The notes under the pieces were generated by a model. It was given only the letters and a program-made list of their open reading frames with translations, did not search any database and was not told the DNA's origin. From Gossypium raimondii (Eukaryota; Streptophyta; Magnoliopsida; Malvales; Malvaceae), in assembly GCF_025698545.1 (NCBI RefSeq), contig NC_068572.1, forward strand, positions 4,526,001-4,590,000: a stretch of 64,000 nucleotides of DNA, in the 5' to 3' direction. A program made the translations under genes and the position numbers. Below, in pieces: positions 27,815-59,359 of the stretch. The first letter of the stretch is position 1. Each line of letters opens with the position of its first letter.

Positions 27815-27819
27815 AATAC

Positions 27820-37594: not shown

Positions 37595-37977
37595 ATTGAT
37601 TTTATATTAACCGATTTGAAAATTTGAGGTTTAATCTGCTGTTTTCTCGAGAAAATTCTCTTTCTCTATTTTTTTTTTTAGTTTATTCTTTCAGCAGGGG
37701 TGAAGAGTTGAAGTCAGAAATCATCTTTTCTGTTTTGTTGCTTTTCGTAAGCTTTCATATATTCTCAGATCTTAGGATGTTTCAACTTTAGCTTTGTTTC
37801 TAAATGCTATGAACTTTATTTATGTTGTTCCAAATCTTCCGAATAAAGCAATAAATTTAGTTATGAATTATTTTCATACACTTTTTGAACTTTGAAATTT
37901 CATCATATATGTACTGTTCCATAGCTGGTAATGACTTTATTGACTTAGGATTTGATACTGACTTAGGATTTGAGTTG

Positions 37978-40523
37978 ATGGCGAGGATCAAACCACAAGC
38001 TCTGCTACAACAAAGCAAAAAGAAGAAAGGGCCAGCTCGAATCAGTGTTACAACAATTATACTCTATAGTTTGATTGTAGTTGTGACTGTGTTTTTTCTC
38101 TATGCTACGTACAGACATTGGTCTCAAAGGTGAGTTGCAATTTGTGTATTGGCTATAATTGGAAATAACAAGAATGAGATTTGGTGCTGCAATGTTTGTA
38201 AATTATATTATTTTCTTGAAAATAATGTTGATTTATTTGTTGTACTGCATGAACTGCTAATTCCAGAGAAGGAAATCTAGGAATGGAACTACTTGTGGAG
38301 AATAAATTAGGGTTAATGTTTCTTATTTGATGGAATTTGACCCAGTTTTCTTGTCTTTAGGTCAAGAACTCAAGTTGAGAACAGGCAATCAGTTTTTAAG
38401 GTACACTCTTCATAGAAATTTGTTTATTTATTCTATAATGGGTTTCTTGATAGTCTTTGCCCAATATCTATATATCATCCTTTTAGGACATTTCAAGGCT
38501 ACTTTTTGCTGTTATTGTTTGCAAATGTATCCATAGTTTACATGCTTTACATTACGAGGAAGTTCTCCTTTTGTTTTTATTGTTTCTTCGGATCTTCTAT
38601 ATTGACTGTGGCTGCCTGTGCCTGGTAGGGTGACACTGACAGCTCTTTCATGGATTCGAAGAAATCTGATCTCCCTGGATATGCTGTAGGTTTCCTTACT
38701 TGCCAAGCTCTCTTTGATTAGTACTTTATGCCCAAGTGAATAATGCCTACTCTTTGTTGTACTTTGCCTGGAATGTGCTGTGCTTAGTTTTCCTGGAAAC
38801 GATGTTGTAAAATGGAACATGAATGATTGACTTATAGTTTGATTTTCTTTTACTGTGCAAATAACTTGCAGATACTTGCTTCTCTGAGTACATGAATTTA
38901 TTAAAAAGACATTAAGAAACAATTTCTTTTTTTATGCTATTAGTTGTAATTGCAGCATCTATTAAGAAAACATAAATCTGTAACATGTCTCTTAGGAGAA
39001 AAAGAAGCCTTTCTTGTTTAGACCTTCCTTAGAGTATCAATTTTATCTTACAATCTTAACAGGTTGGCTGGGATGTTCACTGATTAATTGATCTTGGCTT
39101 TTAGGCTTGTACTTTTAAATCCTATTTGAGTTTTATCCACTGACTTGACTCTTTTTCCCCCCTTCTATGACTAGATTTTAGATACTGCAAAAGGCTCTAT
39201 AACTGTGGAGCTCTTCAAGGACAGTTCTCCTGAGGTTGTTGATCAATTCCTTGATTTATGGTAAGTAAGTGTAATGATGGATTTTCTTTATGTAGAACTA
39301 TCATAAAATTCAACAAGGTGAATATTTTGTTGGAAATAAGGATATAGATAGAGCTGATTAGATCCTGCTTGTGGAAGAGTCAAGAATACCTTGACTCATT
39401 TTCTATATATCACATTCCCCTTTATTCAGAATTACCTTCAGCTTTCTGCCATACATATCGAGAAAGCATGAAAAATTTATCAATATCATGTTAATTAGTA
39501 GCCATCATGCTGAACGTTTGGTTTAAGCTGCAAATCCATTTTAAGGATTTAATGTAGGAGTCTCCATCTAGTTCATGTTCTGTTCTAACTCAAGTTTAGC
39601 CTTTCATTTATTGTTTTATCTGGCATCTTTGGGCATAGAACGGTTTGACCATTTGTTTGTACTTTCAAGTTGGTGTGGGTGATAGATGTGCAAAATGCAT
39701 GGTTTGTTGAATAATTGTATAATCAAGCATCTAACTCTAGGAAGTGCTCGATTTTCGTTCTTTTCTTTTTATTTTTAAATATACACCTTCCCTTCCTCTA
39801 GCTGAACATGGTGTGCATCTGAATGTTGTTAACCTGTGTAAAGGAACAAAATGTGCATTCAAAAGTCATCCTCACTATCATGAATCGATTTATCTGCAGT
39901 CACAGAGGGCACTTCAATGGAATGCTTTTTCGCCATGTGATAAAGCACTATGTTATTCAAGCTGGGGATAGTGACAAGCTGGAAGCAGCCGAGGACTGGA
40001 CTTTGAAAGGAAAGCATTACAGCCAACTTGATACCAGGTTAGTACATTGGTGATTAAACTAATTTTGCCCCATTACTTTACAATCCTGTCAAAGGGTAGG
40101 CAATGCATGCTTTTTAGTAATGTTGTGATGTTCTTCCAGTTTGAAGCATGAAGCATTCATGCTTGGAACTTCTAAGAAGAAGCGTGATAATGGAGCATTT
40201 GAGCTTTTCATCACAACTGCACCAATTCCAGATCTAAATGAGAAGCTTATTGTGTTTGGGAAGGTCGTTAAGGGAGAGGATATTGTTCAGGTAGCAAACA
40301 AACTTCAATTCCTTTCCTTTCTTCTTCTTTGGTTACTAATTACATATTTCATACGATCTCTCTTTCATGTGTGTCATGTACCTAAGAAGTTGCACTTAGA
40401 TTATATCTTTTGTGTTTTGCAATTTTTTTTGCTCAGGAAATCGAAGAAGTGGATACAGATGAGCATTATAGGCCTAAATCTTCAATAGCGATCCGCAGTG
40501 TGACTCTGAAACAAAGCGTCTAA
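37978..40523 (+). CDS. Membrane-anchored cyclophilin-like protein (CYP21-3/CYP21-4 type)
   Basis: Seven coding exons: 37,978-38,129, 38,361-38,400, 38,629-38,685, 39,175-39,260, 39,900-40,037, 40,140-40,290 and 40,437-40,523. All junctions are GT-AG and in phase, total 236 residues. The N-terminus [18 protein letters not shown] is basic and is followed by one membrane span ([21 protein letters not shown]), a type II anchor. The rest is a cyclophilin domain ([60 protein letters not shown]). Arabidopsis CYP21-3/21-4 have this plan and are reported in the Golgi. Where CypA has the catalytic FHR, this protein reads FRH, so the active-site Arg is not conserved and isomerase activity is doubtful. 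The start was chosen at the conserved MARIKPQ; upstream in-frame codons have no support. Confidence 0.93.
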
Positions 40524-41849
40524 AATCAAACACAAGCAAAGAAGTTTTTCACCACTGTCATTCCAAACATAGTTTCAGCGCCATCAGTAAAAATGGGTCA
40601 GAAGAAATATAGTGCATTCCTTCTTGTACTTTATATCTTATTGTGGCTGGCATTACTCAAGGTCCATTGGCCAGGCTTCTTCGAAATTAGTGTGGTTACA
40701 CTTTTGGTTTTCCTTTTTCAGCTATCATACTATATTGTTTTCATTTCTTCTCTTGGAATTTGTTTGTCTGTTTTAATATGCTAATGGACATTGTATTTGT
40801 ACTCTAGTATAATCAGGTGGATAAGAGGCAACTTACAAGTCCAGTTTCTGGTCGCCATCCCTTTTTCTTGCCTCGTGTTTAGGACCCTGTGTCATGATGC
40901 TCATTTTGGTAGATCAATTTTTTGGTCTGATCTTATAATTATCCCAAATTAGCAGCCAATGATAGGCGTCAGAATCAACACAATGGTTGTTCTACAGAAT
41001 CTTGCAATACTCGGCAAGTACCAATGCCCAGCCATAGTTTCAGGATTGATCTCCGCTTCCATAGCAAGTCAATACGACGTTTCTTTACTAAGGCAACCAT
41101 GAAACTCGCCCGAACCCTTAGTAATGAAAACAAGTTCAGGTACCTCAATCGTGTGTTCCCTGAAGGTTGGATTATAAAATTGGGGAAATTCAAAGGAATA
41201 AGAATGATGAAATGTCCAAAGGCATAAACCATGTACAACGCCTTGATTCAGATTTCCCTACTTCAATATCATTCTGCTTTCCAACAATCAAACGCCATAC
41301 AGACACTGTGCACTAGGCAACGCACTGTATGCACCAGAAGCACAGGTAAAGAAAGAAAGAAAGAAAATAGAATACAATCCTAACTGGTATTTATGACCAA
41401 ACAATTTATTACAAACTAATTAATTTGTAGTCATCCTTAAAGAAATAGCATCTAAACCTAAATTTAAAGTTCAAATCTCAATAACTACAAATCCTTTTAA
41501 CTTATAGATTGTGACATTTCTTAGTAAAGAAAACCTTAAAACTGTCTACAATATCTTTCCCATAATTGCTTATGGGATAATATCTGTACCGATATCAGTT
41601 CTACCATGTTTATGATTGAAGATGAATGAAACTTTCCAAGTTAGACACAAGTATGCTCAAAATTTTAAGACTTTATGAATATGCAGTAAACATGAATGTC
41701 CGACACAGATACTTCAAGAAAAATGAAGAGTCACGGTAGCATAGATTTCAATTGATCAAGCATATGTGAGATCCATCAATCACAATTCTTTCTTCTTCTA
41801 CCTTTTCCTCTTATGATGATAACATTGCTATTTGCTTTATTCATAATAG
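40524..41849. other. Intergenic region between convergent genes
   Basis: Begins with the 3'-UTR of the cyclophilin-like gene. Frames at 41,024-41,227 (+) and 40,975-41,238 (-) are open on both strands but show no domain; I could not identify them. Sequence from about 41,850 rightwards belongs to the duplicated RH24 block. Confidence 0.4.
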
Positions 41850-44800
41850 TCAAGGAATGGCTATGCAATTTAGTGTCATTGAAAGACCTATTCTTCCGAA
41901 AGATTACACTGCAATTACTTGAAATTGTTATCAACTCTATCAACTAACTAAAGATACTCCTCAAACAAGAACAGATGGAGAAGGAAAGTTGGAGAAATAT
42001 AAATATGCAGAAAATCAAATTCTAGAACCAAAATAAGAAATACAGACAGGACCTATAACTGAATAAAAAGCAGAAAGAGGACTTACTAAGCATGATAATG
42101 ATACAGATAAGGTTAATTCAATATTTCAACAGACAAATTTCCCGTTTATGTAAACAGCATCATCAGTCAATGTGTGGAAACTAACGGTCCCACCCAGAGG
42201 GCCTTCGCCTTTCTCTTGGTCTATCTCTAGAACTGTCAAAAAAGAGAGGTTAAAAGTATGAGTGTAATCAGCATAGAAGTTTTCTAAAAAAAACAAGAAA
42301 AGCATTGCAGAATGGCGTCGTGAAATTTCAGTTGAAGAAAGAGAGGTTAAAAGAAACCTCTCGGAGCTCCTCTGGGTAGTGTTTTCTCCAGTATTTTGTG
42401 AAGTGTTCAATCCTGATGTAGGAGCAGTGCTGAATGAAGTGGCCATTTGAGACCTATTTATATCTCCACCGATGGTACCGCCAGATACAAATCCAGATAA
42501 AGTTGGTCTCCTGATACTTGAACTGTTATTGAAGCCTTGACTTGGAGGGTTTGTTGAAGCAGCAACAAAGTTACTCTTCATTTGTGCCATCATGCCAGTT
42601 TTGAGAGAATTTACGGCAGCATTTCGACTTTGAACAGCCTGAGATGAAGCATTACTGGATTCTGGATTATATCCAATACCCATACCAAAATCAACTCCAC
42701 GCACACCTCGACCACTCCCACCGCCGCCCCTTCCTCTGCCTTTCTTCCCACCTGCATGTTATAGCACACATCACTTCAGAGTTCAATGCACTTGCATTTT
42801 TGTTCTTCACAAAAGATAAACAATTGCATGCATAATAACTACAATGGTATGTCAAAGAGAACCATACCTCCTTTTCTTGCATTACGCTTGGACCTAAATC
42901 TCCCATCCTGTTAATAGACAAGGCAAGTATCGGGACAAAATTATCATACACATACATCAAATCCGAAATCTACAGATATCAAGAATGAAGAACTAGGTAA
43001 CTTTAAAGGATAGTGCCACCAGTCATAGCATTGTTTCAGGAAACTGGAAAGAAATACAGAAGACCACCAAAGTCGAAGCGAGAAAAGGATGGTATCCATC
43101 ACTTTCTAAGAACTTCAGTGAATGCCATTGACTACAAAATAAATATTAGTTGAAGCAACAAGCAACTGAGTTACCTTCATAGCAAGATCCATCAGTTCCA
43201 TGGAAACATTCTGCCCAGCAGCAATTAAACTATTTACCAATTCACCAGCAAACCGAGCCTCCTTTTGAGTTATCAGAGTATACGCAATGCCATCTTTGTC
43301 ACCAGCACGACCTGTTCTACCAATACGGTGCACATGCATGTCCATGTCCTTTGCAATATCATAGTTCACAACTGACTTAATTGACTTGATGTCAAGACCA
43401 CGAGCAGCAACATCAGTTGCGATGAGAACATGGTAGATGCCAGATTTAAACATTTGTAGAATTTCCATTCGAGAAGCCTGATCTTTGTCACCATGAAGGG
43501 CAGCAACCTTAAAACCCTTACCAGAGAGCTGAGATTCAATCTCATCAACAGTAGCTTTCTTGGAGGCAAACACCAAAACATCACCCTCATCAATCATTCC
43601 AGGTAGCTTCTCGAGAAGCCAGGGAAACTTCTCAGAGTCAGAAGGAATTACATGAACATGCTGAGTAATATCCTCATTAGCTGTTCCCACCTCTCCAACT
43701 GTGACTCTGATTGGGTCACTGAGAACTTCCCTTGCTAACTTTTCAACTTTGCGGGGCATTGTTGCTGAAAATAGTAATGTCTGACGGTCAGGTCTTATTT
43801 GGCCAACAATGGACCTTATCTGAGGCTCAAACCCAAGGTCAAACATTCGATCAGCCTCATCAAGTACCAAATAAGTCGCTCTCATCATTGTCAGTGCCTT
43901 CATTTTTAGCATGTCTATCAATCGACCAGGTGTAGCAACGACTATCTCACATCCTGCCTTAAGTTCCTTGAATTGATCAAGTTTGGACATTCCACCATAC
44001 ACAGCAGAGGCACGTATCCCATAGGCTTTTGCAAATTTCTTTGCTTCCAAGAAGATTTGGTGTGCTAGTTCTCGGGTAGGTGCACATATCACTCCAATTG
44101 GACCTTCCTCCTTCTGAAGTTCAGGCTGATCCATAATGTGGACAATCATAGGAAGCACAAAAGAAGCAGTTTTACCGGAACCAGTTTTTGCTATACCAAT
44201 AACATCCCTCCCAGAAAGGACAATAGGTAAGGCTTGGCACTGAATAGTTGTTGGCTTTTCATACCCTTGTTTTGCAATAGCACGCATTAACTCTGGTGCA
44301 AAACCACAGTCTTCAAATCTCTTAACAGGTCTTGGGACATCAAAACCAGAAACACGAATAGCCAAACTCTTTCTGTATTCAGCAACTTCCTGCTCACTCA
44401 TTCCTAGAAAAGGGATTTTTTTGAAGAAAGAAGAGTTTAGACTCAGAGCAAGCTCAATGAAGAATATCCTTATATCATGAAAAAAGTGCCACATTATAAA
44501 TTTATAAGCAATAATGACTAACAGAGTCATGAAGTATATGATTTTCAATAAAATGCCAATAATCTCCTAGGATCCGTGGCTAACCTAAAATAAATACCAT
44601 AAATCACTTATGCCTCTAAGTTCTAAATCATATTTAGATTTCACACTCTATTCTAACTTTATAAACTTGCTAGTATCCTTTAGAAGATAATCATGTAATT
44701 AAGCTGCATTCAGATAAGTATAAAAGGTTGCATACATCGCAATTAACCAAGCCATAGTCAAACTGCAAGTAATTGTAATTATCCAACTAATATCATTCAT

Positions 44801-45569
44801 AACCGAATAATACCATCCAATATATATGGTTTGTTTTTTCTTCTAGTTCTGAAGATCTTAAACTCATAATTATCAGATAATTTGCGATATCAGTTACCTG
44901 AAATTGAGGCCTTCTCCTCATAAAAATCTTTATTAAACGGTTCATACTCAATGGAACTGTGATCAAGGGCTGGAATCGGCTCGATCTTCTTCTTGTCGAC
45001 AACCACGGGATTATCATCAGAATCATACTCCAACAAACCCGCATCTACAGCCTTGGCAGCGGCATAAACCTCCTCGTCCGAATCATACCCAGCACGCAAA
45101 GCATCCGCCGCTAATGTCAGCCCAACATCCTTCTTCGACCTCAAAAAACTCTCCACTGGATCATCCTCATCTTCATCGTCTCTATACCTCTCAGCCTTCT
45201 CCTTGGGCTTCGGAGTCGGCTTCGCTTTCAAATCCTCCTCAATACCTTGCATGAAGGCGTCGAGAGGGTCGATTTCGTCATCTTCCCCTCCGTTGCCATT
45301 GCTGGTGGTGGGGTCATTGGTGTCGGCGTCGTTGGAGGTATCGTTGTTATCGGCATAATCGATGTCGTCAAGGTCGTTATCTTCGTAGTTGTCGTGGGAA
45401 TGACGAGAGGATGGAGGGACATAAAGGCGTTGAGGAGCTTGGGATCGCTCGAAGTTGTAGGTTGATTGACGGTTTATCCCAAACCCTTCGAATCCGAATT
45501 TGCGTTTCGACATGTCTGATCCTTCTTTCTCTTACCAAAACCCAAATTTCATAGGGGTTTTGCGAATTT
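41850..45569 (-). repeat. Left arm of a gene-sized inverted duplication
   Basis: About 3.7 kb that matches 52,899-56,680 in inverted orientation, introns and 3' flank included. Similarity ends about 56 bp upstream of the start codon and about 330 bp beyond the stop codon, so the duplicated block is essentially the transcription unit. Confidence 0.85.
42181..45513 (-). CDS. RH24: DEAD-box ATP-dependent RNA helicase RH24, left copy
   Basis: Exons on the minus strand: 45,513-44,898, 44,403-43,175, 42,907-42,868, 42,751-42,358 and 42,232-42,181. All are GT-AG, giving 776 residues (Arabidopsis RH24 about 760). The N-terminus MSKRKFGFEGFGINRQ is typical of RH24, followed by an acidic Asp/Asn-rich region. 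The core in exon 2 shows the Q motif, AKTGSGKT (I), PTRELA (Ia), TPGR (Ib), DEAD (II), SAT (III), VLVFASKK (IV), TDVAARGLDI (V) and HRIGRTGRAG (VI). A Gly/Arg-rich RGRGGGGSGRG segment and a short tail ending RPRERRRPSGWDR follow. By homology to human DDX42-type helicases it remodels RNA in the nucleus; precise targets are unknown. Intact. It differs from the right copy at about 20 residues (e.g. KRFEDCG against KTFEDCG) and has one extra Thr. Head to head with its twin. Confidence 0.95.
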
Positions 45570-45710
45570 TCTTTTCCTAATTTAGAAATCAAAACAATAA
45601 ACACTGCTACTTTAAATTTGTAATATCAAGCTTATGTTTGGATTGGAGTAGGAAAGGGGAAGGGAAAGCAAAGCAAGGAAAGCTTTTTATTTTACAGTAA
45701 ATTTCACTCA
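45570..45710 (-). promoter_or_regulatory. Proximal promoter region of RH24, left copy
   Basis: No similarity to the matching region of the right copy beyond about 56 bp upstream of the ATG. No TATA box is visible. A MITE begins at about 45,711, so the promoter is hemmed in by a transposon roughly 200 bp from the start codon. Confidence 0.4.
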
Positions 45711-46213
45711 AGGTCACTTAAATTATTAGTAAATTTACATTTTAGTCACTCAACTTCAAAAGGTTACAAAATGGTTACTAAATTATTCAAAATACTTCAT
45801 TTAAGTCGTTGAGCTGTTAAACTCGTTGTTTTATGGTCTTTTCTGTTTACACTTTCTGTAACAATCGAAAGCTCTCATTCTCATTCTCTTCTATTGTTCA
45901 ATTTTTTTCATGAAACTACTTTGAATATCATAGATTTATGTACCAAAATCCAAACAACTTTCATCCTTGATCTCTAACACTGACCATCAAATCGAATTGG
46001 ATCTAAGATATGTTCTTCTACTCGTTGATGGATACTAATCCACTGTACTGATCATTAAATCGTCGATTGAAACTCACTAGCCAAACTTAAATAATAATAA
46101 TAACTCAATAGCCTAATGACTTAAATAAAATCTTTCAAATAGTTTAATGACCATTTTATAACTTTTAAAAGTTGAGTGACCTAAATGTAAATTTATTAAT
46201 AGTTTAGTGACCT
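45711..46213. mobile_element. MITE with ~95-bp terminal inverted repeats
   Basis: Begins AGGTCACTTAAATTATTAGT and ends with ACTATTAATAAATTTAC-type sequence inverted (ending AATAGTTTAGTGACCT). The two arms match over about 95 bp with moderate divergence (e.g. TTTACATTTTAGTCACTCAA against TTTACATTTAGGTCACTCAA). About 500 bp, no coding. Long arms suggest the Mutator superfamily, but I found no target duplication. Confidence 0.75.
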
Positions 46214-46798
46214 TTTATTTATTTAGATATATTTCTCTTATCTAAGGTAAACAAGGGAAATTGGGTTTTATAATATATATCTCAAAATATCCTCCATGTC
46301 CATTTTATGGTATATGAATATTAATCTTTTGAGGATCGTTGTCTTCCTCTTTCAACAATATCATAACACTTTGTTTAAAATTGAATATAGTAAAGCAACA
46401 AAATTTATCATTTCTAAAATTTGTTCAAAATTACGTAATTATTGAAAATTGAGTGTTTGAAACATGGTTTTAAATAAATTTTAAGGGTTGTTGGTGTAAA
46501 TTATCCTTTTTTATTTGGATAAACTTTTAGTCCAGGTAAGGAAAATTGTATGAAATTACTATCTCCTACTTGAAAACTTTTTTTCTATTTACATTACTTC
46601 AATTTGGGCGAAAAGCCAAGAAAAAAAACAAAACTTTAGGATATAAAGGTTTTTCTTTTTCTTTTTGTCTTTTCTTTCAATTATAAATAGTTGTAATTGT
46701 AAATTTTCATTATAATTAATGCTTTCCTTTCTTTTCTTTTTGAGTTATTCAAACAAAATGATTAAAGTTATTCCATTTTCTTTTCTTTATTAATTTTA

Positions 46799-49700
46799 GG
46801 GCAAACTGTATAGGTAGTCATCTAATTATTGGTAAATTGTTTTTGGTCATCCAACTATGAAAATTTACAAAACAATCACTTAATTATTAGACTTTTTTCT
46901 CTTTTAGTCACTAGTGGTTAAATTCTTAACAAAATATAACTATAACTTGGCAACTTTTAAAATTGGCATAATAGAAACTTAAACCCCAATATTTGTACAT
47001 TGTGTCAATTTAGTCTTTATTCTAAAAATTAACCTTCAAACATTTACACATTGTATTATTTGATCTCTTTCTTTTTATATAGTTTTACTTTTATTTGTAA
47101 CATTGAGAGTTAGTTTTATTTGTACAAAAAGAATGGGAAAAGATAAAGATTATTGTCCCACCGGAAAATGTTAAAGGTTGAGGTGCCTCCACAATTGTGG
47201 GTATTAAATTAGAAAACCATCTGTTTAAGTGGGTTCTAGTGTAAATTAATAAATCTGATAGACTGCTTGGCAAATAGTTAGATTTCAATTGCTTGTTTTG
47301 TTACATTTGAACCGAGTTTTCTTTTAGTGGGAAACATTATGATTAAGGGTATTAATAATACTAGTCGACTTTGGATTAAGTGAAACAGTAGTGGAAAAAT
47401 TATATATAGGAGGATTATCTCATTCCAATATTCATTTTTCTTTTTTTTTCTTTCTTTCTTTCATCTTCTTCTTTAGATTGTTCTGTAAGAGAGAAAAGTT
47501 AAGAAGTAATCTGCATGGAGGGCGAAAATAAAGTATCAACTTAAGTGATTGAGAGTTTAGTAAATTGTTATCCAAGAAGGAGTAGACTCAGGTGATAAGG
47601 AAAAACTAAGCAGGTGTAACTAGTATCAGCTTTCAAGTATTTTGCTAGTGAGTTTCTAAACTCAAACTCTTTGTGGTTGTTATATATATATATATATATA
47701 TATATCAGCATTGTGTTGTTATATTGTGTTTGGCTTCATGTTCTGCTAATGATTAGTTGAATTATGGTGAGATTGTTTGTTGTACAATTGAAGTAAGCAA
47801 AATGATGATTATCAGATGCATGTTTGATTGTACGTATCAGTTCGTTATTTTGTTAGGCTTTCACTAGTTAATAATTACTGAAGTAGTTATCATTGAAATG
47901 ATTCGCTAAATAATATGTTTGGTATGATATTTGTGTTATTAATAGAATGATCAGTTGAATGCTTGTTATATGTTTGTCATAAATATGAATGATATGCGAA
48001 GTATGGAGGGATGTTTTGGCAGATAAAAGATGAAATGTCACATTATGCACTTTGTGCCACGTGTTATTTGACTTTGCAGAGGTTTAGGCAAATTGTACAA
48101 AGAATGTATATGCATGGTTTTCAACTTTACGAAGGTTCAATTGGACTGTATGGAGATATATGTGCACAAGCATATGAAAACCCTACAAAGGTTCTATGTA
48201 AGTAAGAGACTCTGCGAAGCCTAAGGCTTTAAGCCTCATATGTATAAGCAAGTCAAAGGCCATGGCATATGTAAGTTATGAAAGTCCAACGAACTTGATC
48301 TTTAAGCTTTACATCAAAGTTATACATGAGATTTCTCCATACGAAGTTTGGGACAAAGCCTACATGTATGAATCCGCTTTGTTCATAAAGTTTCTTCTGT
48401 GAACCCGTAAGCATGAATCCTCCACATTTATGAAGTTTTTTCTATGAATCTGTATGTATGTAAGTATTCACTTATAGATCCACATGCATGAGTTCGCCAT
48501 ATGTGAGTTTGCATTCATTAATCTTTTATATGAATTTATATGTATGACAGTCCGCTGGATTTATCTTTATGGTTCAAGCTATGATAGTCTGCTGATCTCA
48601 TTCTCATGTTTCAAGTTTAAGATATCAAATAGACTATCATTTATAAGAGTCAGTATAGACTATTATCCAAGCAAGAAACCGCATGGGCTTAATATTATGT
48701 TCAAGCTACGAAAGTTTGTATGAACTAGTTATATTAAGTCAAAATCGCAGGATCTTCTTCACTTTGGAGTCCTTCAAGGACTATCGAGAGTCTGTAGTGA
48801 CTATCCGCCAACAAGTGTCTGGCAACAACTATTATTTAAAATGAAGTTCACAAGTAAGAAACCATCTGTATGAACCTACGATTATGATTTAGTTTATAAA
48901 GGTGAGTAAGTAAGGTTTGCAGGTATATGTTCGCTAAGCTCAAGTCCACATATATAAAACTTTAAGTGTAAATCTGCATGTAAGAGAAATTCTCCAAGTG
49001 TGAATCTCTATGCATGAGCTTTCTCAAATTAATTCGCCGTAAGTGAATCTGCAATGACAACGAACGCTAAGGTAATTTGCGTATGTTCTATTGGCAAAAA
49101 AGGTAACATTCCATCTTGCAGGAAATCAGTACAAATGGGTAAATAAAAATCAATCCGTATTGTAGCCTATAGCACGACCGATAGAAATGGTGAATTGTGT
49201 CGATGCAGAAGGTGTATAAATTCTCATGATGAGTTAGCACAATGAAGGACAAGAGTACGTCAGGAAGATTGTGTGAACCTTACTTGTGCAAGCATTGTCA
49301 AATAGGAGACCAAACCCCTGACGTTCTTACTTATAATTCATAAATGGTATATTATATTGGAAACTCATTGGGTCCATTTGAACTTACTTAGTTTTGTTAT
49401 GTTTTCCAGTTATGATGTTTTATATAAGGAGCTGAAGAGGGATCAAGCCAAAATTCGTTCAAGCTCAAACGAACCTATGTTCTTAATGTGTAACATGCAT
49501 ATAGTGAGGCGACCTAGAGGTTGAACCTCAAGGTCTGAATCTTTGTAACAATGTTTGAACTTGATATATTATATATTCCTTGGCGAGTAATTATTTAAAT
49601 GCAGCAAAACCATTATTGTTAATATTTTCATAAGTTCATGTTAGTAGCTTAAGCTAAGAATTTGTAACGGTAGCATTTTAATTTGGCAGACCAACCAAAT

Positions 49701-50277
49701 TAAACATGTTAAGTTTTTACTGATGATAGGTGAACTAAGTCATGTATGATTAAGGAAGCATATTTGGTTGATTTAGTTGTGTTAGTTTTTAAAAGTTTGT
49801 TAAAATTTGTTCATAGTTTATTTCAGTGTTGATGTGACACTTTGTATCTAGACCTGTCAATCAGGTCGGGTATAGAGTGTTACAATTGTTATCTTGGATT
49901 TTTTCGTGTTTCTACTTTGATATATTTCTAATCAAATTTAGATGATAGGATATTTTTAGCATTTTAGGTGAAAGGGTTACAAAGAAAGACAAAATTTTAA
50001 AAAAAAAGGACCAAATTATACAATGTATAAACATTGAGGTTAATTTTTTTAGAATCGGTACTAAAAATGTATAAACATTGAGGTTAATTTTTTTAGAATC
50101 GGTACTAAATTGACATCGTGCATAAATGTTGAGGGTTAAAGTTACTATTATGTCAATTTTAGAAGTTGTCGCATCATCTTCCTATCAGCCATTGACCAAA
50201 AAGAAAAAAAAATTAAATAATTAGGTGATCCAAAAGAAACTTACCAATACTCAGGTGACTACAAGTGTAGTTTACCA
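46799..50277. mobile_element. Mutator-type element (long TIRs, 9-bp TSD) split by a solo LTR
   Basis: Begins GGGCAAACTGTATAGGTAGT and ends with the inverted counterpart CAAGTGTAGTTTACCA. Arms of about 300 bp match imperfectly in inverted orientation. It is flanked by a perfect 9-bp duplication TTAATTTTA (46,790-46,798 and 50,278-50,286), diagnostic for Mutator-like elements. If the LTR at 47,198-49,884 is set aside, about 0.79 kb remains, split almost symmetrically, so this was a non-autonomous MITE-sized element. No transposase. Confidence 0.82.
47198..49884 (-). mobile_element. Solo LTR (gypsy-like TGTAACAC family) inside the Mutator-type element
   Basis: On the minus strand it begins TGTAACACTCTATACCCGAC, the same signature as the LTRs at 4,121, 4,778 and 24,337. 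It ends TTTAATACCCA next to 47,198. ATTG lies outside both ends (47,194-47,197 and 49,885-49,888). The right-hand flank reads straight back into the Mutator-type arm. The body contains many variants of CATATGTGAGTTCGC-like strings and a TA tract near 47,680. No retroelement genes. Confidence 0.6.
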
Positions 50278-50384
50278 TTAATTTTAACTATCCAAACAAA
50301 GTAATGTATAATGATTTATTTTCCTTAACTTTCCTTTATTTTACTTTCTTTTCCTTTATTCTTCCCTTTACTACTTTTAATAAT

Positions 50385-50725
50385 ATCAGCCCTTGTATTA
50401 TGTATATATTGCATATTTAGTTTTGTACTCTAATCGATCATTTTAGTCCATGTACTTTTCAAAATTTAAAATTCTAGTCTTGATCCAAACGTAGCCAATC
50501 TTATGTAGCAAACATATTATCACATGTGTAATGCCATGTTAGTTCACTATTTCTACATAATACTCAGAAAAAAATCACTCCATTTTAGTTTATGGATTTA
50601 ACGACAACTGGATTGAAATTTCAAATTTTGAAAAAGTATAAGATTAAAAATGATCAAATTGGAAAATAAGGAACAAATCCACAACTTACACATAGTACAA
50701 GACTAATAGCAAAATTTGACCAAAT
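50385..50725. mobile_element. MITE-like inverted repeat
   Basis: The left half (CTTGTATTATGTATATATTG ... ATCATTTTAGTCCATGTACTTTTCAAAATTTAAAATT) is the inverted form of the right half (AAATTTTGAAAAAGTATAAG ... AATGATCAAATTGG ... CATAGTACAAG). A related half-element lies at about 52,690-52,830. No target duplication was identified. Confidence 0.6.
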
Positions 50726-50839
50726 GGCTTTAACTTCTATTGTTTGGGTTTGACTCTAATTTCAAAATTCAAAAAATATAAATACTAAAATTAACCAAAT
50801 TAGAGTACATGAATTAAATCCATACTATTGAACGCATAA

Positions 50840-50950
50840 CCCCTCTCCAATCCGTAAATAAAAGAATATAATGCACTTCAATGCACTCAAACCCACGTTC
50901 TCCTACATTGGTAACAATGCTCATGCCAACATAATCTATAAAAATTTAAA
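50840..50950 (+). repeat. Dispersed repeat, copy 2 of 3
   Basis: Contains TAATGCACTTCAATGCACTC and CCCACGTTCTCCTACAT, matching the copy at 1,565-1,680 in order and orientation. Non-coding. Confidence 0.55.
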
Positions 50951-51229
50951 TGTTAGTATTTAATAGAAAATGGTTTTAAAAAATCTCAATATTCCTTATT
51001 GCAAAGAAAAAAACACAATGGCCCATTGGAAAATTAACATTAAAATGAAAAATGAAAAATGAAAAACAACCCTTCAAAGAAATTGTAAATAAGATGAAGG
51101 GTTAGCAATCACTAATAATGAAGGAACCATTAGAGGCTTTTAAAATGAGAGGATATAAATACATAATATCCTCTACTAAGGGCTACAAATCAAACTTATA
51201 ACTTCAAGGCCTAATCTCCTTTCTTTACT

Positions 51230-51913
51230 CTAAAAGTGGACCTTATCGACACCAATAGCTAAAGTATTGCTAATCATCTTTCGTATCGCTGAATCCATTT
51301 GTATATTCGGCGATTTGATGTTGGCTTCTAGAAATGCATCCTCACAAGTTTGTAAATTCTCGATATTGGAGCTTAATTCCATGCTTACTTGGTAAACGTC
51401 ATGCAAAGAGAGAGCATCAAGGACTCTCTTATCGCTATCGAGGATGGATTTGTAGTTATCCAAGCATGTTTCAAGGCAAGAAGCAGTCATTTTTTGGGTC
51501 GAGTGATCTTGCATAAGTTTCATAGCCTTGTCTATGGCTTCCTTAACCTTGTTATCCATTGCTTGAATCTCAAGTTTGAGGACAGATACGGGTTCTGCAA
51601 CAAATTTACTATGACCTAGGAATGGAACAATATTTGATATACACTCTTCAGGATGGTCAGTGTCTTTACAGATTTGCTGAAGCCCAGGGTCAACATTATT
51701 GGTAGGTAATGTAGGTAATTTATTAAATGTTTGGTCCATTCGAGTTCCTGAAGATTTGGAAAAATGAACATTAAATGCTGCAGATGGAGCTGAAGATGAT
51801 GAGTGAGAAAAAGAGTAATGATAGGAATAAGATGGAGGGGTAGAGGCAGAAGTAGAGAAGGAGAAGAGACAGGAAAGGGAGACGAGGGCCAAGATTAAAT
51901 GGTTCATCCCCAT
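51230..51913 (-). CDS. Secreted PMEI-domain protein (invertase/pectin methylesterase inhibitor family)
   Basis: Single exon, 227 residues, starting at the only ATG that precedes the signal peptide (51,913, in GAGACCATGG, a strong plant context). The signal peptide is MGMNHLILALVSLSCLFSFS. A Ser/Tyr/Pro-rich spacer (about residues 25-60) comes next, then a PMEI domain from QQICKDTDHPEECISNIVPF. It has the first Cys pair, then ASCLETCLDNY and LQTCEDAF with the second conserved pair, and the helical MELSSNIENL. Such proteins act in the apoplast, inhibiting pectin methylesterases or acid invertases; which target applies cannot be told from sequence. It lies in the spacer between the two RH24 copies and is transcribed away from the right one, with about 1.04 kb of shared upstream sequence. 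Confidence 0.88.
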   Translation of the reverse strand: MGMNHLILALVSLSCLFSFSTSASTPPSYSYHYSFSHSSSSAPSAAFNVHFSKSSGTRMDQTFNKLPTLPTNNVDPGLQQICKDTDHPEECISNIVPFLGHSKFVAEPVSVLKLEIQAMDNKVKEAIDKAMKLMQDHSTQKMTASCLETCLDNYKSILDSDKRVLDALSLHDVYQVSMELSSNIENLQTCEDAFLEANIKSPNIQMDSAIRKMISNTLAIGVDKVHF

Positions 51914-52898
51914 GGTCTCTTCAGTTGGATAATAGAAGAATAAGAGGAAAAGCTTGATTGTGTTGGGGAATGGCAAATAGCCACAAATTTAAAGCATTTT
52001 AAGGCAATGGTTGTGCATGGAAATAGCAACTCAAAGAGAGATGTGCCACACAATCTAATATTAAGATAATTGGTTCTCCTTTTATTATAATTGCTTACAT
52101 TTCGATACTCACTTTAGAGGAGTGTATACAGTGAATTTTTTATCAATTGCCATATTACATGTAATTTTGTAATAAACAATATTTTAGTGGTAAAAATACT
52201 ATGGAGTCCCTTATATTAGGGTTTAGATTATATTTTGCTCGTTCTACTGAAAAATAAGTAAATTAGTTCATATACGTTAGATTAATAAGTAAATTAACCC
52301 TTTTGTTAAAAATTGGTTCATGCATGTCAACACGAGGTATATCGGCACATCATATGTATGTGTCGAATTATTTGTTAGTCGGGTTTTACATTAAAATATG
52401 GATGAAATTTTTAATAGAAACGATTGGTTTGTTATTTGATCTAACATACATAGACTAATTTATCCATTTTTAGCGAAAGGAAAAAATTCAATCTAATTCT
52501 TAATATGGGGACCTCTATAATACTTTTACCGCATAATTCGATTGTAATGTCATAAAAGATGTTAACTATTAATTATGTACTATGTATATAAATTGTAGAT
52601 ATTAATGTTGTATTATGGGTATGCGTATGTTGTAGAAATTATATTTATTCTTCAATTTAATTATTTTTAATCTTTATATTATTTTTCGAATTTTCACTAC
52701 TAAGGACAAAAATTTTAAAATTTAAAAATAGTAAATACAGGATTAAAATGATCAAATTAGAACAATATGGACTAAATTCGTAAATTATACATAATACAGG
52801 GAGTGATATCGGCATTTGACAAAAACAATAATAATTGAATCTTCGTTATCTCAGTAGCGTTCACCGTTTGCATTTCAAACCCTATAAAGAGAAAAAAG
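51914..52898. promoter_or_regulatory. Divergent intergenic region between PMEI gene and RH24 right copy
   Basis: About 1 kb separating two outward-transcribed genes. No clear TATA box for either. 52,690-52,830 holds half of a MITE related to 50,385-50,725, so part of the RH24 promoter side is transposon-derived. Unrelated to the sequence upstream of the left RH24 copy. Confidence 0.5.
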
Positions 52899-55800
52899 AA
52901 ATCCCCAAAACCCCTACGAAAATTGGGTTTTGGTAAAAGAAAGAAGGATCAGACATGTCGAAACGCAAATTCGGATTCGAAGGGTTTGGGATTAACCGTC
53001 AATCAACCTACAACTTCGAGCGATCCCAAGCTCCTCAACGTCTATACGTCCCTCCTTCCTCTCGTCATTCCCACGACAACTACGACGATAACGACCTTGA
53101 CGACATCGATTATGCCGATAACAATGATACTTCCAACGACGCCGACACCAATGGCCCCACCAGCAATGGCAACGGAGGGGAAGATGACGAAATCGACCCT
53201 CTCGACGCCTTCATGCAAGGTATTGAGGAGGATTTGAAAGCGAAGCCGCCTCCGAAGCCCAAGGAGAAAGCGGAGAGGTATAAAGAGGATGAAGATGAGG
53301 ATGATCCAGTGGAGAGTTTTTTGAGGTCGAAGAAGGATGTTGGGCTGACCTTGGCGGCGGATGCTTTGCGTGCTGGGTATGATTCTGATGAGGAGGTTTA
53401 TGCCGCTGCCAAGGCTGTAGATGCGGGTTTGTTGGAGTATGATTCTGATGATAATCCCGTGGTTGTAGACAAGAAGAAGATTGAGCCGATTCCGGCCCTT
53501 GATCACAGTTCCATTGAGTATGAGCCGTTTAATAAAGATTTTTATGAGGAGAAGGCTTCAATTTCAGGTAACTGATATCGCAGATTATCTGATAATTATG
53601 AGTTTAAGATGTTCAGAACTAGAAGAAAAGAACATATATATTGGTAGTACTATTCTGTTATTAATGATATTATGTGGATCAAATATTAGTTGGATAATTA
53701 TAATTACTTGGTTGATTGCAACGTAAAGCTTATTTCACAATGGACAAGGATTTATACTTATCCGAATGCAGCTTAATTTACTTGATTATCTTCTGGATGA
53801 TACTAGCATAATTTATAAAGTTCGAATAGAGTTTGAAATGTAAATATTATTTAGAACTTAGAGGCATAAGTGATTTCTTTTAGGTTAGCCAGAGGTCCTA
53901 GGAGATTATTGGCATTTATTTGAAATCATATACATCATGACTCTGTTAGTCATTATTGCTTATAAATTTATAATGTGGCACTTTTTTCATAATGTAAGGA
54001 TCATATTCTTCATTGAGGTTGCTCTGAACCTAAACTCCTTTTTCTTCAAAAAATGCCATTTTCCAGGAATGAGTGAGCAGGAAGTTGCTGAATACCGAAA
54101 GAGTTTGGCTATCCGTGTTTCTGGTTTTGATGTCCCAAGACCTGTAAAGACATTTGAAGACTGTGGTTTTGCACCAGAGTTAATGCGTGCTATTGCAAAA
54201 CAAGGGTATGAAAAGCCAACAACTATTCAGTGCCAAGCCTTACCTATTGTCCTCTCTGGGAGGGATGTTATTGGTATAGCAAAAACTGGTTCTGGTAAAA
54301 CTGCTTCTTTTGTGCTTCCTATGATTGTACACATTATGGATCAGCCTGAACTTCAGAAGGAGGAGGGTCCAATTGGAGTGATATGTGCACCTACCCGAGA
54401 ACTAGCACACCAAATCTTCTTGGAAGCAAAGAAATTTGCAAAAGCCTATGGGATACGTGCCTCTGCTGTGTATGGTGGAATGTCCAAACTTGATCAGTTC
54501 AAGGAACTTAAGGCAGGATGTGAGATAGTCGTTGCTACACCTGGTCGATTGATAGACATGCTAAAAATGAAAGCACTGACAATGACAAGAGCAACTTATT
54601 TGGTACTTGATGAGGCTGATCGAATGTTTGACCTTGGGTTTGAACCTCAAATAAGGTCCATTGTTGGCCAAATCAGACCTGACCGACAGACATTACTATT
54701 TTCAGCAACAATGCCCCGCAAAGTTGAAAAGTTAGCAAGGGAAATTCTCAGTGACCCAGTCAGAGTCACGGTTGGAGAAGTGGGAACAGCTAACGAGGAT
54801 ATTACTCAGCATGTTCATGTAATTCCTTCTGACTCTGAGAAGTTACCCTGGCTTCTTGAGAAGCTACCTGGAATGATTGATGAGGGTGATGTTTTGGTGT
54901 TTGCTTCCAAGAAAGCTACTGTTGATGAGATTGAGTCTCAGCTTTCTGGTAAGGGTTTTAAGGTTGCTGCCCTTCATGGTGATAAAGATCAGGCTTCTCG
55001 AATGGAAATTCTACAAAAGTTTAAATCTGGCATCTACCATGTTCTCATCGCAACTGATGTTGCTGCTCGTGGTCTTGACATCAAGTCAATTAAGTCAGTT
55101 GTGAACTATGATATTGCAAAGGACATGGACATGCATGTGCACCGTATTGGTAGAACAGGTCGTGCTGGTGACAAAGATGGCATTGCGTATACTCTGATAA
55201 CTCAAAAGGAGGCTCGGTTTGCTGGTGAATTGGTAAATAGTTTAATTGCTGCTGGGCAGAATGTTTCCATGGAACTGATGGATCTTGCTATGAAGGTAAC
55301 TCAGTTGCTTGTTGCTTCAACTAATATTTATTTTGTAGTCAATGGCATTCACTGAAGTTCTTAGAAAGTGATGGATACCATCCTTTTTTCGCTTCGACTC
55401 TGGTGGTCTTCTGTATTGCTTTCCAGTTTCCTGAAACAATGCTATGACTGGTGGCACTATCCTATAAAGTTACCTAGTTCTTCATTCTTGATATCTGTAG
55501 ATTTCGGATTTGATGTATGTGTATGATAATTTTGTCCCGATACTTGCCTTGTCTATTAACAGGATGGGAGATTTAGGTCCAAGCGTAATGCAAGAAAAGG
55601 AGGTATGGTTCTCTTTGACATACCATTGTAGTTATTACGCATGCAATTGTTTTATCTTTTGTGAAGAACAAAAATGCAAGGCAGCTGAAGAAATGTTGAT
55701 CACCATTTCTTTATGTGTATGATCATTTGTATTTTTGTGAAGAACAAAAATGCAAGTGCATTGAACTCTGAAGTGATGTGTGCTATAACATGCAGGTGGG

Positions 55801-56680
55801 AAGAAAGGCAGAGGAAGGGGCGGCGGTGGGAGTGGTCGAGGTGTGCGTGGAGTTGATTTTGGTCTGGGTATTGGATATAATCCAGAATCCAGTAATGCTT
55901 CATCTCAGGCTGTTCAAAGTCGAAATGCTGCCGTAAATTCTCTCAAAACTGGCATGATGGCACAAATGAAGAGCAACTTTGTTGCTGCTTCATCAAACTC
56001 TCAAAGTCAAGGTTTCAATAACAGTTCAAGTATCAGGAGACCAACTCTGTCTGGATTTGTATCTGGCGGTACCATTGGTGGAGATATAAATAGGTCTCAG
56101 ATGACCACTTCATTCAACACTGCTCCTACATCAGGATTGAACACTTCACAAAATACTGGACAAAACGCTACCCAGAGTAGCTCAGAGAGGTCTCTTTTTT
56201 TTCAACTGAAATTTCATGATGGCATTCTGCAATGCTTTTCTTGTTTTTTCAAGAAAACTTCTATGCTGATTACACTCGTACTTGGCTCTTTTTGACAGTT
56301 CTAGAGATAGACCAAGAGAAAGGCGAAGGCCCTCTGGGTGGGACCGTTAGTTTCCACATGTTGATCGATGATGCTGTTTACATAAACGGAAATTTTGTCT
56401 GTTCAAATATTGAATGAACCTTATCTGTATCATTATCATGCTTAGTAAGTCTTCTTTCTTCTTTTTGTTCAATTATAGGTCCCGTCTGTTTTTCATATTT
56501 TGGTTCTAGAATTTTATTTTCTGCATATTTATATATTCTCCAACTTTCCCTCCCCATCTGTTATTATTCGAGTACCTTTAGTTAGTTGATAATAATTTCA
56601 AGTAATTCCAATGTAATCTTTTGGAAGAATAGGTCCGCTGTCATCTTTCAATGGCACTAAAATGCGTAGCCATTCCTTCT
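52899..56680 (+). repeat. Right arm of the gene-sized inverted duplication
   Basis: Inverted partner of 41,850-45,569. Intron 3 is longer here (55,603-55,795, 193 bp against 116 bp) because of an internal tandem duplication around GTGAAGAACAAAAATGCAAG. Confidence 0.85.
52955..56350 (+). CDS. RH24: DEAD-box ATP-dependent RNA helicase RH24, right copy
   Basis: Exons 52,955-53,567, 54,067-55,295, 55,563-55,602, 55,796-56,189 and 56,299-56,350. All are GT-AG, 775 residues, with the same intron positions and phases as the left copy. All helicase motifs are intact: AKTGSGKT, PTRELA, DEAD, SAT, TDVAARGLDI, HRIGRTGRAG. The last exon completes the tail RPRERRRPSGWDR. Most residues that differ from the left copy sit in the acidic N-terminus and the Ser/Asn/Gly-rich C-terminus; a few are in the core (LTMTRAT against LTMMRAT, EILSDPVRV against EVLSDPIRV, ILQKFKSG against ILQMFKSG). 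At several sites the right copy has the residue also present in Arabidopsis RH24 (KTFEDCG, KFKSG), while at LTMMRA and DPIRV the left one does. Role as for its twin. Confidence 0.95.
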
Positions 56681-58140
56681 TTCTTATTGGACCCCTCTAC
56701 CTCAAAATCTGTCGCCTTTTGCCTTGAACTTGCATTGTTGACGACAATGTCATTCTTGATAGCAAACACAGAGTTATTGATGCTATCTCCATGGGCGATG
56801 CTAATCAGCTGAGCTTAGAAAGATGCGTTCAAAGAAGCCGACATTAAATGGCGAATACTAGAGATGGATTCATTGCTTAGCAAGATGATGACTAAGAGTT
56901 TGACCATTGGTGTCGACATGGTCCGCCCTTAGAGGAAGAAATGATTTAGAAAAATAACGAAGGACATTAACCCAAAAAAGTACTGCAATTTTTGCTTAAT
57001 CCCATAGATTTAGGGTTAAATTTTCTTGTTATTGCTATTGTTCTTTTTATACCTAGCCGCTTCTTTTAACATAATTGGATCAAAGCCTTTAGTTTAATTT
57101 ATAAATCATATTATAATGGTCCCAATCTTCATTCCTTGTTGAATCAATTTAATATTTGGGACCTAATTAACTAGCTATAATTATATCTAAATATATATAT
57201 ATTGTAGTTCCAAGGTAACGAAATTTCAAGCAGTGGTAGCAGAGATGTATCAATCGGATTAGGTACGTAAAACAAAGTGCTTAACTACTCATTAAGTTAA
57301 ATTAACTTAAGCTTTGTCCTCTCTTTTTCTAGTTATAAATCGGACCTTGATCTCTTTTAGTTGACTTTGCCTTTCCCTACACCCAAAGTGAGAAAAGGTT
57401 TAGGTAATTAGTACAGGTAACAATAATTAATATTAAATGTTGGGTGTTTATTAGGTATATATTAAATTAAATAATAATTGGAATCGAGGGGAATGATACT
57501 TTTTTATTAAAATCGGAATCAAACAGATAACTCAAAATTTCACGCACCTTAATTTAATAAGATTTGGATAATGTCTAATTCTGCTTTCAGTCCCCATACA
57601 TTTTATTTAGTCTTTTTACTTTCGAATTTAGTCTTTCTATACTTTTGATTTAGCAATTGAAATCCAATTGTTAAAAGGAAATTTGTTGAATCCCATTACG
57701 CGACATTTTAAAATTAAAAAATATATATTCATTTGATTAATTTAAAATAGAATGGCAACCATGTAAGTAAAAAAAAATCCACTTTCACTTAATTAAAACA
57801 GTCCTGAAAAATTTTACAACCCCAAATTTAGAAAAAGAAAATATTATAACCTTGGATTCAACATTTTTATTTGGTTATTGGCCTATATATATAATATTAA
57901 TGGAATTACTTTAATAGAAAAACTAAATTTCAAATGTGTGTGGAGTATAGGGATTGAGTGCTAATTAGACCTTAGGATAATATTTCAAATATATACATAT
58001 ATATTTAGTGTTTGGTGATTAAATAAAATGCATAACTTTAGATGGAATAAGATACCATGTCTTTATGTCAACTAATTCAAGCTATGGACGTGGCAACCGA
58101 CTTAATCTTCCTTTTTATTCAAAAACCCCTACAAATTAAT
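56681..58140. other. Intergenic stretch, nothing firmly recognised
   Basis: 56,700-56,940 has a less AT-rich, possibly once-coding composition (a short open frame with DAISMGDANQLSLERC) but no family I can name. The remainder is AT-rich. Confidence 0.4.
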
Positions 58141-58146
58141 CTAATT

Positions 58147-58155
58147 TATATATAA
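58147..58155 (+). promoter_or_regulatory. TATA box of the six-span membrane protein gene
   Basis: TATATATAA, 93 bp upstream of the ATG at 58,240, consistent with a leader of about 55-60 nt. Confidence 0.65.
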
Positions 58156-58239
58156 TGTTCCTCATCACACAAACAAGAGAGTTTTTAGTGATCTTTCCAT
58201 TTTTTCTTTATTCCTTTGTTCATCGGAGTGAAGAAAACG

Positions 58240-59109
58240 ATGGGGTGGTGGGATAATTCATATCACGAAGCTAAGAAACTCCTCATTTCACCCACCATGA
58301 AACAACCCTTTCACTTGCTGGCAACCCTCCTCCTCAGCCTATGGCTTCCCCTTGCTTTCCTCCTCGTCGCCAGGCTATCTTATGTTAACTACACCTTAGA
58401 CGCCACCGTGTTAGACCCTTCTTCTACACCTTCCCCACCATCGTTCCTTTTCTCTTTCTACTTGTACACCAATCCAGCTCTTCTTTATTTCCTCGTTGCA
58501 GCTATTAGCATCGTGGCTCTGGTTCATGGTTTGACTGGGAAAGTCAGCTTCGTAACTGAGTCACCGAGTTCTTTTCATCGACCCCATTTGCGTATTGCAT
58601 GGATTATTTTATGTATACTGCAAGTTTCCGTTGGGTTGGGGATTGAAGGAAGCGTAGCGGTAGGTATCAACGGTGCTGGGTTTGGGGTTCAAAGGAGTGT
58701 TTTAAGTAGATTAATATTCTTCTTGGGTTTGCATGAGGTGATGCTTGTTTGGTTCCGAACGGTGGTAAAACCGGTGGTGGATGATTCTATCTTTGGTGTC
58801 GTTAGTGAAGAGAAATGGGTTCATAGGGCTGCTATTGCTTTGAGCGTTGGCACCCTATGGTGGTGGAAACTTAGGGATGAAGTGGAGTCATTAGTGGTGG
58901 TTGCAGAAGCGAAGAAGGAGCTGTCAATGGAGATTGAAATGGCTGATTTTCTTGGTTGGTGGCTATATTACTTGACTGTCACAATTGGTATGGTTAGAAT
59001 TGTTAAAGCACTTCTTTGGGTTGGTTTTGCGTTGCTTTGTAGAGGTGTAAGAAGGAACATCGATGACGAGATCATCGCCATGGAAGAGGAAGATCAAGAC
59101 AAGGTATAA
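58240..59109 (+). CDS. Multi-pass membrane protein of unknown function
   Basis: Single-exon gene, 289 residues, from the first ATG (MGWWDNSYHEAKKLL). Six hydrophobic segments are visible, around residues 30-53 (LLATLLLSLWLPLAFLLVA), 70-100 (FLFSFYLYTNPALLYFL), 118-142 (IAWIILCILQVSVGLGI), 158-180 (LIFFLGLHEVMLVWF), 200-215 and 240-272. It has a short acidic C-terminus (DDEIIAMEEEDQD). The pattern is that of a plant-specific family of predicted transmembrane proteins; I do not recognise a named family and assign no function. The start has a TATA box at a proper distance, and codon use is ordinary, so it is probably a real gene. Confidence 0.8.
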   Translation: MGWWDNSYHEAKKLLISPTMKQPFHLLATLLLSLWLPLAFLLVARLSYVNYTLDATVLDPSSTPSPPSFLFSFYLYTNPALLYFLVAAISIVALVHGLTGKVSFVTESPSSFHRPHLRIAWIILCILQVSVGLGIEGSVAVGINGAGFGVQRSVLSRLIFFLGLHEVMLVWFRTVVKPVVDDSIFGVVSEEKWVHRAAIALSVGTLWWWKLRDEVESLVVVAEAKKELSMEIEMADFLGWWLYYLTVTIGMVRIVKALLWVGFALLCRGVRRNIDDEIIAMEEEDQDKV

Positions 59110-59359
59110 ACATAAAACTCGAGATGAGAGATTTGAATTAAATTTGTTAAATTTCTTTTTCTTAAAAGGATAAATCAATTGAATTAAGACAAAGATGTAA
59201 AGTTGAAGCTGTCTTGATTCTTTTTTTATTTTCTTTTTCCCACCAAATGTGGGTTTGTTTATTGTTGTTGGGTCAATGGTGACTTTCCTTTAATGAGAAA
59301 AAGAAAAATACAAATTTGGTAATCCTTAATTGCAATATGTATACTTGTAAAATATTGTG

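Follow-up and report, generated by a model that had tools for sequence, protein, structure and literature searches.

We conclude, with a probability of roughly 0.8, that the two DEAD-box RNA helicase genes of the RH24 type that stand head to head on contig C8 of Gossypium raimondii are an original (copy A) and a later gene-sized duplicate (copy B). About 3.7 kb of A would have been copied, in inverted orientation, into a neighboring pair of pectin methylesterase inhibitor (PMEI) genes, likely by repair of a break, and gene conversion would later have re-matched part of the two copies. The window, that is, the whole stretch of DNA analyzed here, is the 64-kb interval C8:4526001-4590000 of an assembly of 750.8 Mb in 281 contigs, and positions given without a contig name are window positions. 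An earlier note on this DNA had described a head-to-head inverted duplication with both copies intact. Ten inverted-repeat pairs (A 41885-45578 against B 52890-56635, 89-97% complementarity) and our gene models bear this out. However, the duplication of the locus was not symmetric: B is an insertion beside a truncated PMEI gene, which the note missed.

The two genes have the same structure. In models built from splice signals (Table 1), each has five exons and four GT-AG introns at the same positions, in phases 1, 0, 1 and 2, and the products of A (776 aa) and B (775 aa) contain no internal stops. The proteins are identical at 755 of 775 aligned residues (97.4%), and the two start codons are 7,442 bp apart. 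The note had given about 97% identity, 7.4 kb between the 5' ends, identical intron positions and phases, and alignable introns, all in agreement with these values. It had also excluded a retrocopy, and the four introns shared by both copies rule one out. Its limits of similarity stand at the 3' end (about 330 bp past the stop codon; we find ~329 bp, ending at 56678 in B) but not at the 5' end, where it had put the limit 56 bp upstream of the ATG: in the base-level alignment similarity is clear from 61-62 bp upstream and continues more weakly to ~100 bp. Beyond these limits blastn found no match between the upstream flanks (45590-46800 against 50300-52870), as expected from its claim that the promoters are unrelated, or between the downstream flanks (38000-41860 against 56670-60500). 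Intron 3 measures 193 bp in B (55603-55795) and 116 bp in A, a difference of 77 bp, and in B it contains a partial self-repeat, TTTTGTGAAGAACAAAAATGCAAG being present twice; the extra length is probably a small tandem duplication.

A collinear block on contig C11 distinguishes the old position from the new one. At C11:53.50-53.594 Mb the order is membrane-protein gene (-), PMEI (-), broken PMEI (-), PMEI (+), RH24 pseudogene (+), cyclophilin (-). Flipped, this reads cyclophilin (+), RH24 pseudogene (-), PMEI (-), broken PMEI (+), PMEI (+), membrane protein (+), and the window reads cyclophilin (+), A (-), PMEIa (-), B (+), psi-PMEIb (+), membrane protein (+). Of the genes covered by the search, only B is extra on the window side. 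Because the order matches except for B, A appears to occupy the old place and B a new one, and on this evidence we take A to be ancestral and B to be a derived, gene-sized insertion. From its collinearity we call the C11 block homeologous. The comparison covered 120 kb of C11, searched only with the open reading frames (ORFs) of the window.

Several pieces of the cyclophilin gene match C11:53593652-53590651, and the hydrophobic 'MGWW' ORF on the other side is 67% identical to its C11 counterpart over 248 residues, although it matches no Pfam family at E 0.001. ORFs to the right of 59106 (e.g., a bZIP gene) have no match in the 120 kb at E 0.001. The C11 copy of RH24 (53586064-53587295) is single, decayed and truncated at its 5' end. 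In Arabidopsis, At2g47320 is the cyclophilin CYP21-3 (PMC5431436) and At2g47340 is in a list of the PMEI superfamily (PMC8990755); the codes 47320, 47330 (RH24) and 47340 are consecutive and thus agree with A being in the old place. (Articles cited by PMC number are cited for the passages bearing on the statement.) The PMEI cluster in the C11 block (C11:53544551-53571240) consists of two open genes and one broken gene, and further PMEI clusters lie on C9 at 47.81 and 48.16 Mb.

The right end of B joins the remains of a PMEI gene. Homology to A ends at 56678, and PMEI homology begins at ~56682 with psi-PMEIb, the C-terminal half of a second PMEI gene; the intact gene, PMEIa, lies in the spacer and is divergent from B, with 1,042 bp from ATG to ATG. 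psi-PMEIb is 63.6% identical to PMEIa in DNA (E 1e-18; tblastn E 5e-6) and has matches on C9, C11 and C8. The C8 match, ~15 kb downstream, covers 56682-56785 at 81% identity (108 columns) and fixes the edge to within ~4 bp. The PMEI genes have diverged far more than the helicase copies, and thus would be older and would have been the target rather than part of the copied unit; we rejected on this ground the idea that the PMEI fragment belongs to the helicase duplication. Searches for the first ~130 codons of PMEIb (tblastn of 51980-52870 and of the whole window) gave only short matches at chance level. The C8 relic (C8:4598279-4599106, minus strand), which is ~8 kb beyond the window and interrupted by other sequence, was considered as the missing half and rejected, since it overlaps psi-PMEIb and is therefore another relic.

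Divergence between the copies is not uniform. The earlier note had proposed base-by-base alignment and intron divergence as a check; the introns do align, but one stretch has far too few differences. The copies differ at 201 of 3,719 aligned sites. Introns 1 and 4 differ at 12.4% and 11.9% of sites, and introns 2 and 3 at 1.5% and 3.4%. A tract of 850 columns, running from late exon 2 into early exon 4, has 9 differences where 50.3 are expected from site class, and none of 500 stratified permutations reached the scan statistic. An identical run as long as the longest one observed (369 bp) arose in 8 of 20,000 stratified shuffles. No third codon position differs inside the tract (0/156), compared with 50/620 outside, and noncoding differences are 8/383 (2.1%) inside against 125/1008 (12.4%) outside. 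We read this tract, which the note missed, as a probable later gene conversion, and the noncoding values suggest that the duplication is several times older than this conversion.

A near-identical tract could also result from strong constraint or from a mutation rate that is low locally, and part of the tract does encode conserved helicase core. Exon 2 is closer to the C11 pseudogene inside the tract (12.5% different) than before it (19.1%), which gives mild support for constraint on the exon. However, introns 2 and 3 differ far less between the copies than introns 1 and 4, and no third codon position differs in the tract. Comparison with the C11 pseudogene also shows that these introns are not conserved by nature: intron 2 differs from it at 76 of 239 aligned sites (32%), against 4 of 267 between A and B, and intron 3 at 37 of 97 (38%). 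We rejected constraint as the cause on the intron and third-position divergence, and consider it very improbable.

Outside the converted tract (codons 521-681 removed), synonymous divergence (dS) is 0.126 (95% bootstrap range 0.090-0.163, 500 replicates), and the ratio of nonsynonymous to synonymous divergence, dN/dS, is 0.10 (95% range 0.055-0.18), in line with the purifying selection proposed in the earlier note. Over the whole gene dN is 0.0115 and dS 0.097, and inside the tract dS is 0. If one copy had been neutral, ~87 changes would be expected at the 1,800 nonsynonymous sites, compared with the 20 amino-acid substitutions seen; thus, neither copy resembles a long-dead gene, and both look constrained from their sequences. 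The note had described the differences as concentrated at both termini. The 21 amino-acid differences (20 substitutions and one deletion) are distributed as 6 in residues 1-205, 6 in 206-614 and 9 in 615-776. The excess over the core is significant in the C-terminal tail (9 of 162 residues, Fisher p=0.016), the region of the protein under least constraint, but not in the N-terminus (p=0.23).

We postulate the following history. After the ancient polyploidy, in the cotton lineage, ~3.7 kb of A, introns included and extending from ~60-100 bp 5' of the ATG to ~329 bp 3' of the stop codon, would have been copied and placed in inverted orientation among the neighboring divergent PMEI genes, one of which now has only its C-terminal half. 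The likely route is a double-strand break in the PMEI gene that was repaired on the nearby helicase template, leaving a gene-sized repair patch, with the PMEI gene perhaps cut in the same event. Several features are those expected of such a patch: the donor is intact, the introns were copied, the ends are unrelated to gene structure, and the target is broken, with only the C-terminal half of PMEIb left at the junction. Since the copied unit lacked the upstream region of A, B would have to be transcribed from sequence of the PMEI site, a 1-kb divergent region shared with PMEIa. Both proteins would act as the same ATP-dependent RNA helicase, and later gene conversion would have restored near-identity between the copies from late exon 2 into early exon 4.

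Several points weigh against this history. The repair route rests on a damaged target together with the absence of other signatures. Neither end of B carries an exact direct repeat of 5-12 bp, and there is no clear microhomology at the junctions, where ~13% synonymous divergence since the event blurs the record. The left junction is itself blurred, with terminal inverted repeat (TIR) elements close by. The first half of PMEIb could have been lost before or after the arrival of B, and C11 also carries a broken PMEI gene, so that these genes break without help. Lastly, comparison with the C11 pseudogene indicates that F465 and M523 of A and T379 of B look derived (the other differing sites being uncovered or uninformative). 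With two derived residues in A and one in B, A is not the more conservative copy in sequence.

Other origins have to account for the same junctions and gene order. A larger tandem or inverted segmental duplication, arising by unequal exchange, template switching or a later inversion, with the remainder deleted or overwritten by transposons, would explain why the copies are close together and inverted, and the many transposon-like elements of the spacer could mask sequence that was lost. However, in the stretches compared there is no similarity past the gene-sized unit on either side, psi-PMEIb (see above) is far too diverged from PMEIa to have been copied along with the helicase, and, among the genes searched, the C11 gene order matches except for B. 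We rejected a segmental duplication on the flanks and the collinear order, and judge it unlikely. Capture and movement of the gene by a transposon (Pack-MULE, Helitron or similar) is somewhat less likely still. TIR-like elements do adjoin the left junction (52176-52545 and 52705-52809) and lie in the spacer, but the lack of the direct repeat counts here as well, no inverted repeat of at least 40 bp pairs the two sides of B (shorter TIRs were outside the test), and the right end joins PMEI coding sequence rather than the end of an element, Helitron ends not having been searched for. We rejected capture by a Pack-MULE or other TIR element on the missing direct repeat of 5-12 bp and the lack of enclosing TIRs of at least 40 bp.

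An assembly error, or two alleles placed side by side, is the least credible explanation. Only one assembly was used, but the flanks differ on both sides, the copies differ at the many sites counted above, both lie in one 62.6-Mb contig, and B adjoins a cut PMEI gene. The earlier note had likewise thought an artefact unlikely. The insertion of a copy of A into the PMEI pair thus remains the explanation that we favor.

Table 1. Features of the helicase pair and its surroundings (window positions)
Feature	Position	Strand	Basis or remark
Copy A, RH24/DDX42-type DEAD-box helicase, 776 aa, putative ancestral position	42181..45513	minus	gene model, Pfam, DDX42 match
Copy A exons	45513-44898, 44403-43175, 42907-42868, 42751-42358, 42232-42181	minus	
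Copy B, RH24/DDX42-type helicase, 775 aa, putative derived position	52955..56350	plus	gene model, Pfam, C11 block
Copy B exons	52955-53567, 54067-55295, 55563-55602, 55796-56189, 56299-56350	plus	
Putative gene-conversion tract in A	42599..43449	minus	end of exon 2, intron 2, exon 3, intron 3, start of exon 4
Putative gene-conversion tract in B	55021..55948	plus	partner of the A tract
PMEIa, intact PMEI gene, 227 aa, in spacer	51230..51913	minus	Pfam PMEI E 1.3e-20
psi-PMEIb, decayed C-terminal half of second PMEI gene (from ~codon 136)	56682..56923	plus	abuts 3' end of B
Right junction of B insertion (RH24 3' flank / PMEIb coding sequence)	56679..56681		alignment ends, to ~4 bp
Left junction zone of B	52810..52893		clear similarity to A from 52894, weak from ~52851
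Cyclophilin gene (exon pieces), left neighbor of A	37867..40485	plus	Pfam Pro_isomerase E 8.8e-9 on 40129-40485
Hydrophobic 'MGWW' ORF, right neighbor	58240..59109	plus	collinear with C11:53501210-53500482
TIR element, MITE-like (miniature inverted-repeat transposable element), ~100-bp TIRs, ~517 bp	45698..46214		185 bp upstream of A ATG
3.5-kb TIR element	46799..50276		exact 10-bp flanking repeat ATTAATTTTA at 46789-46798 and 50277-50286
Palindromic MITE-like element	52176..52545		between PMEIa and B; partial matches elsewhere
TIR-like element	52705..52809		adjoins left junction of B

The spacer is more than a promoter, a point that the earlier note missed. It contains the intact PMEIa gene and transposon-like elements, and three delimited elements together make up ~4.4 of its 7.4 kb. 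The element nearest A is present in many copies across the genome (a first look gave 3,568 candidate places, 40 of which were scored), and the internal part of the 3.5-kb element is also repeated.

The family assignment of the helicases is based on domains, motifs and structural relatives. Pfam DEAD and Helicase_C domains are present in both A and B (in A, in the exon-2 frame), and nine DEAD-box motifs (Q, I, Ia, Ib, II, III, IV, V and VI, named as in PMC12030476, with motif strings of our own choice, in part from the sequence) are at corresponding places in the two copies. Among solved structures, human DDX42 ranks first for A (E 4e-177, residues 11-731), and DDX46 scores lower (E 5e-131, residues 61-635). 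Copy A thus belongs to the RH24/DDX42 subfamily, closer to DDX42 than to DDX46/PRP5, also beyond the helicase core. When the A unit was searched as DNA, 17 matches came up: one piece for A, two for B, four for the decayed C11 copy, and ten short ones elsewhere. In a protein search with exon 2, the closest other match in the genome lies on C10 and is 51% identical.

Copy A agrees with the described G. raimondii helicase GrDEAD9 (Gorai.004G050000.1) in length (776 aa), mass (85.09 kDa) and isoelectric point (pI 5.72). If C8 is the chromosome called D08 and D08 is Chr04, A, at 4.57 Mb on C8, would fit GrDEAD9 in position as well. That gene is placed at 4.58 Mb on Chr04 (PMC3975418, Table 1). Copy B (775 aa, 84.72 kDa, pI 5.79) has no entry among the 161 helicases of the same table. 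The passages of that article on tandem genes name just two tandem helicase pairs, and A/B is not one of them. A literature search for the locus codes Gorai.004G0498 to 0503 turned up PMC3975418 only.

Arabidopsis RH24 (At2g47330) has been reported as an ATP-dependent RNA helicase that unwinds ILR3 mRNA when the plant responds to chilling and iron (PMC12037725). It was classed as atPrp5-2, with DEAD and Helicase_C domains, in a survey of splicing genes (PMC545797), and a cassava table gives it the label DDX42 (PMC4871855). The view of the earlier note that RH24 is normally a single-copy gene has thin support. One AT2G47330 gene is named in the Arabidopsis papers (PMC12037725, PMC545797), it occurs once in the cited part of a tomato paper (PMC12030476), and RH24 has one entry in the cotton table (PMC3975418), but the cited parts of the two Arabidopsis papers do not state a copy number.

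The duplication can be dated approximately. At 1% pairwise synonymous change per million years (PMC6320677), a dS of 0.126 corresponds to ~13 million years (9-16), and at r=2.6e-9 (PMC5157027, PMC7554350) to ~24 million years (17-31); both rates are borrowed, and the gene-specific error is large. The value is between the dS of 0.055 reported for KUP genes of G. arboreum and G. raimondii (PMC7554350) and the polyploidy peak at 0.48 (PMC10405168), so that the pair is predicted to be present in all cottons. The split of the D-genome subgenus has been put at 6.58 Ma (million years ago; PMC6320677).

The rest of the window contains other features. To the left of the cyclophilin gene, 35150-36926 and 32570-32830 form an imperfect tandem-repeat array that is self-similar at many offsets (~63-85%), and an ORF at 33386-33799 has a plant mobile domain (PMD, E 6e-23) and is perhaps transposon-related. 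A minus-strand ORF at 22973-23233 has an RNase H-like RVT_3 domain (E 2e-14) and is perhaps a retroelement remnant. Pieces of a 2-oxoglutarate-dependent dioxygenase gene (2OG-FeII_Oxy, DIOX_N) lie at 15220-18445, and 16001-18000 is very AT-rich (GC 0.218). GC skew is strongly negative, -0.29 to -0.38, at 4001-10000 and 26001-28000, and the ORFs at 6172-6435 and 25649-25915 have internally repetitive translations.

The pair is a true, proximal gene duplication of an ordinary kind that is unusually well resolved. It is a readable case of a plant genome re-duplicating a gene whose other old copy, the C11 pseudogene, decayed, and donor, target, damaged gene and later conversion are all visible in one assembly. 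RH24 acts in the iron and chilling responses of Arabidopsis (PMC12037725), so that a second cotton copy, with different upstream sequence, is a definite candidate for study; of the two copies, only one appears in the published helicase table of G. raimondii (PMC3975418). We speculate, while considering it doubtful, that B acquired the promoter side of the PMEI gene that was broken. A housekeeping, splicing-type helicase might then follow the tissue pattern of a cell-wall gene through the region shared with PMEIa, with conversion re-matching only the later helicase core between two promoters and separately drifting tails.

The pair can be compared with several known systems. Arabidopsis RH24 has the same DEAD and Helicase_C domains, the DDX42 label and, judged by gene code, the same neighbors. 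There is one gene there, whereas here there are two nearby copies, one of them at a new site. GrDEAD9 agrees with copy A in length, mass and pI, and copy B has no counterpart in its table. Gene conversion between inverted repeats and between tandem paralogues is a known phenomenon and produces the same kind of near-identical tract across exons and introns. Unlike the general case, the tract here reaches only from late exon 2 into early exon 4, and the other parts and the upstream regions diverge. Insertion of plant genes by patching of double-strand breaks has been described in grasses and credited to Wicker et al. 2010 (PMC3445842, PMC3503983). The resemblance includes gene-sized filler DNA with introns, an intact donor, a damaged target and no transposon ends found. 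In contrast to those cases, no clear microhomology is seen here, the donor is only 7 kb away and inverted, and both copies are intact and apparently constrained.

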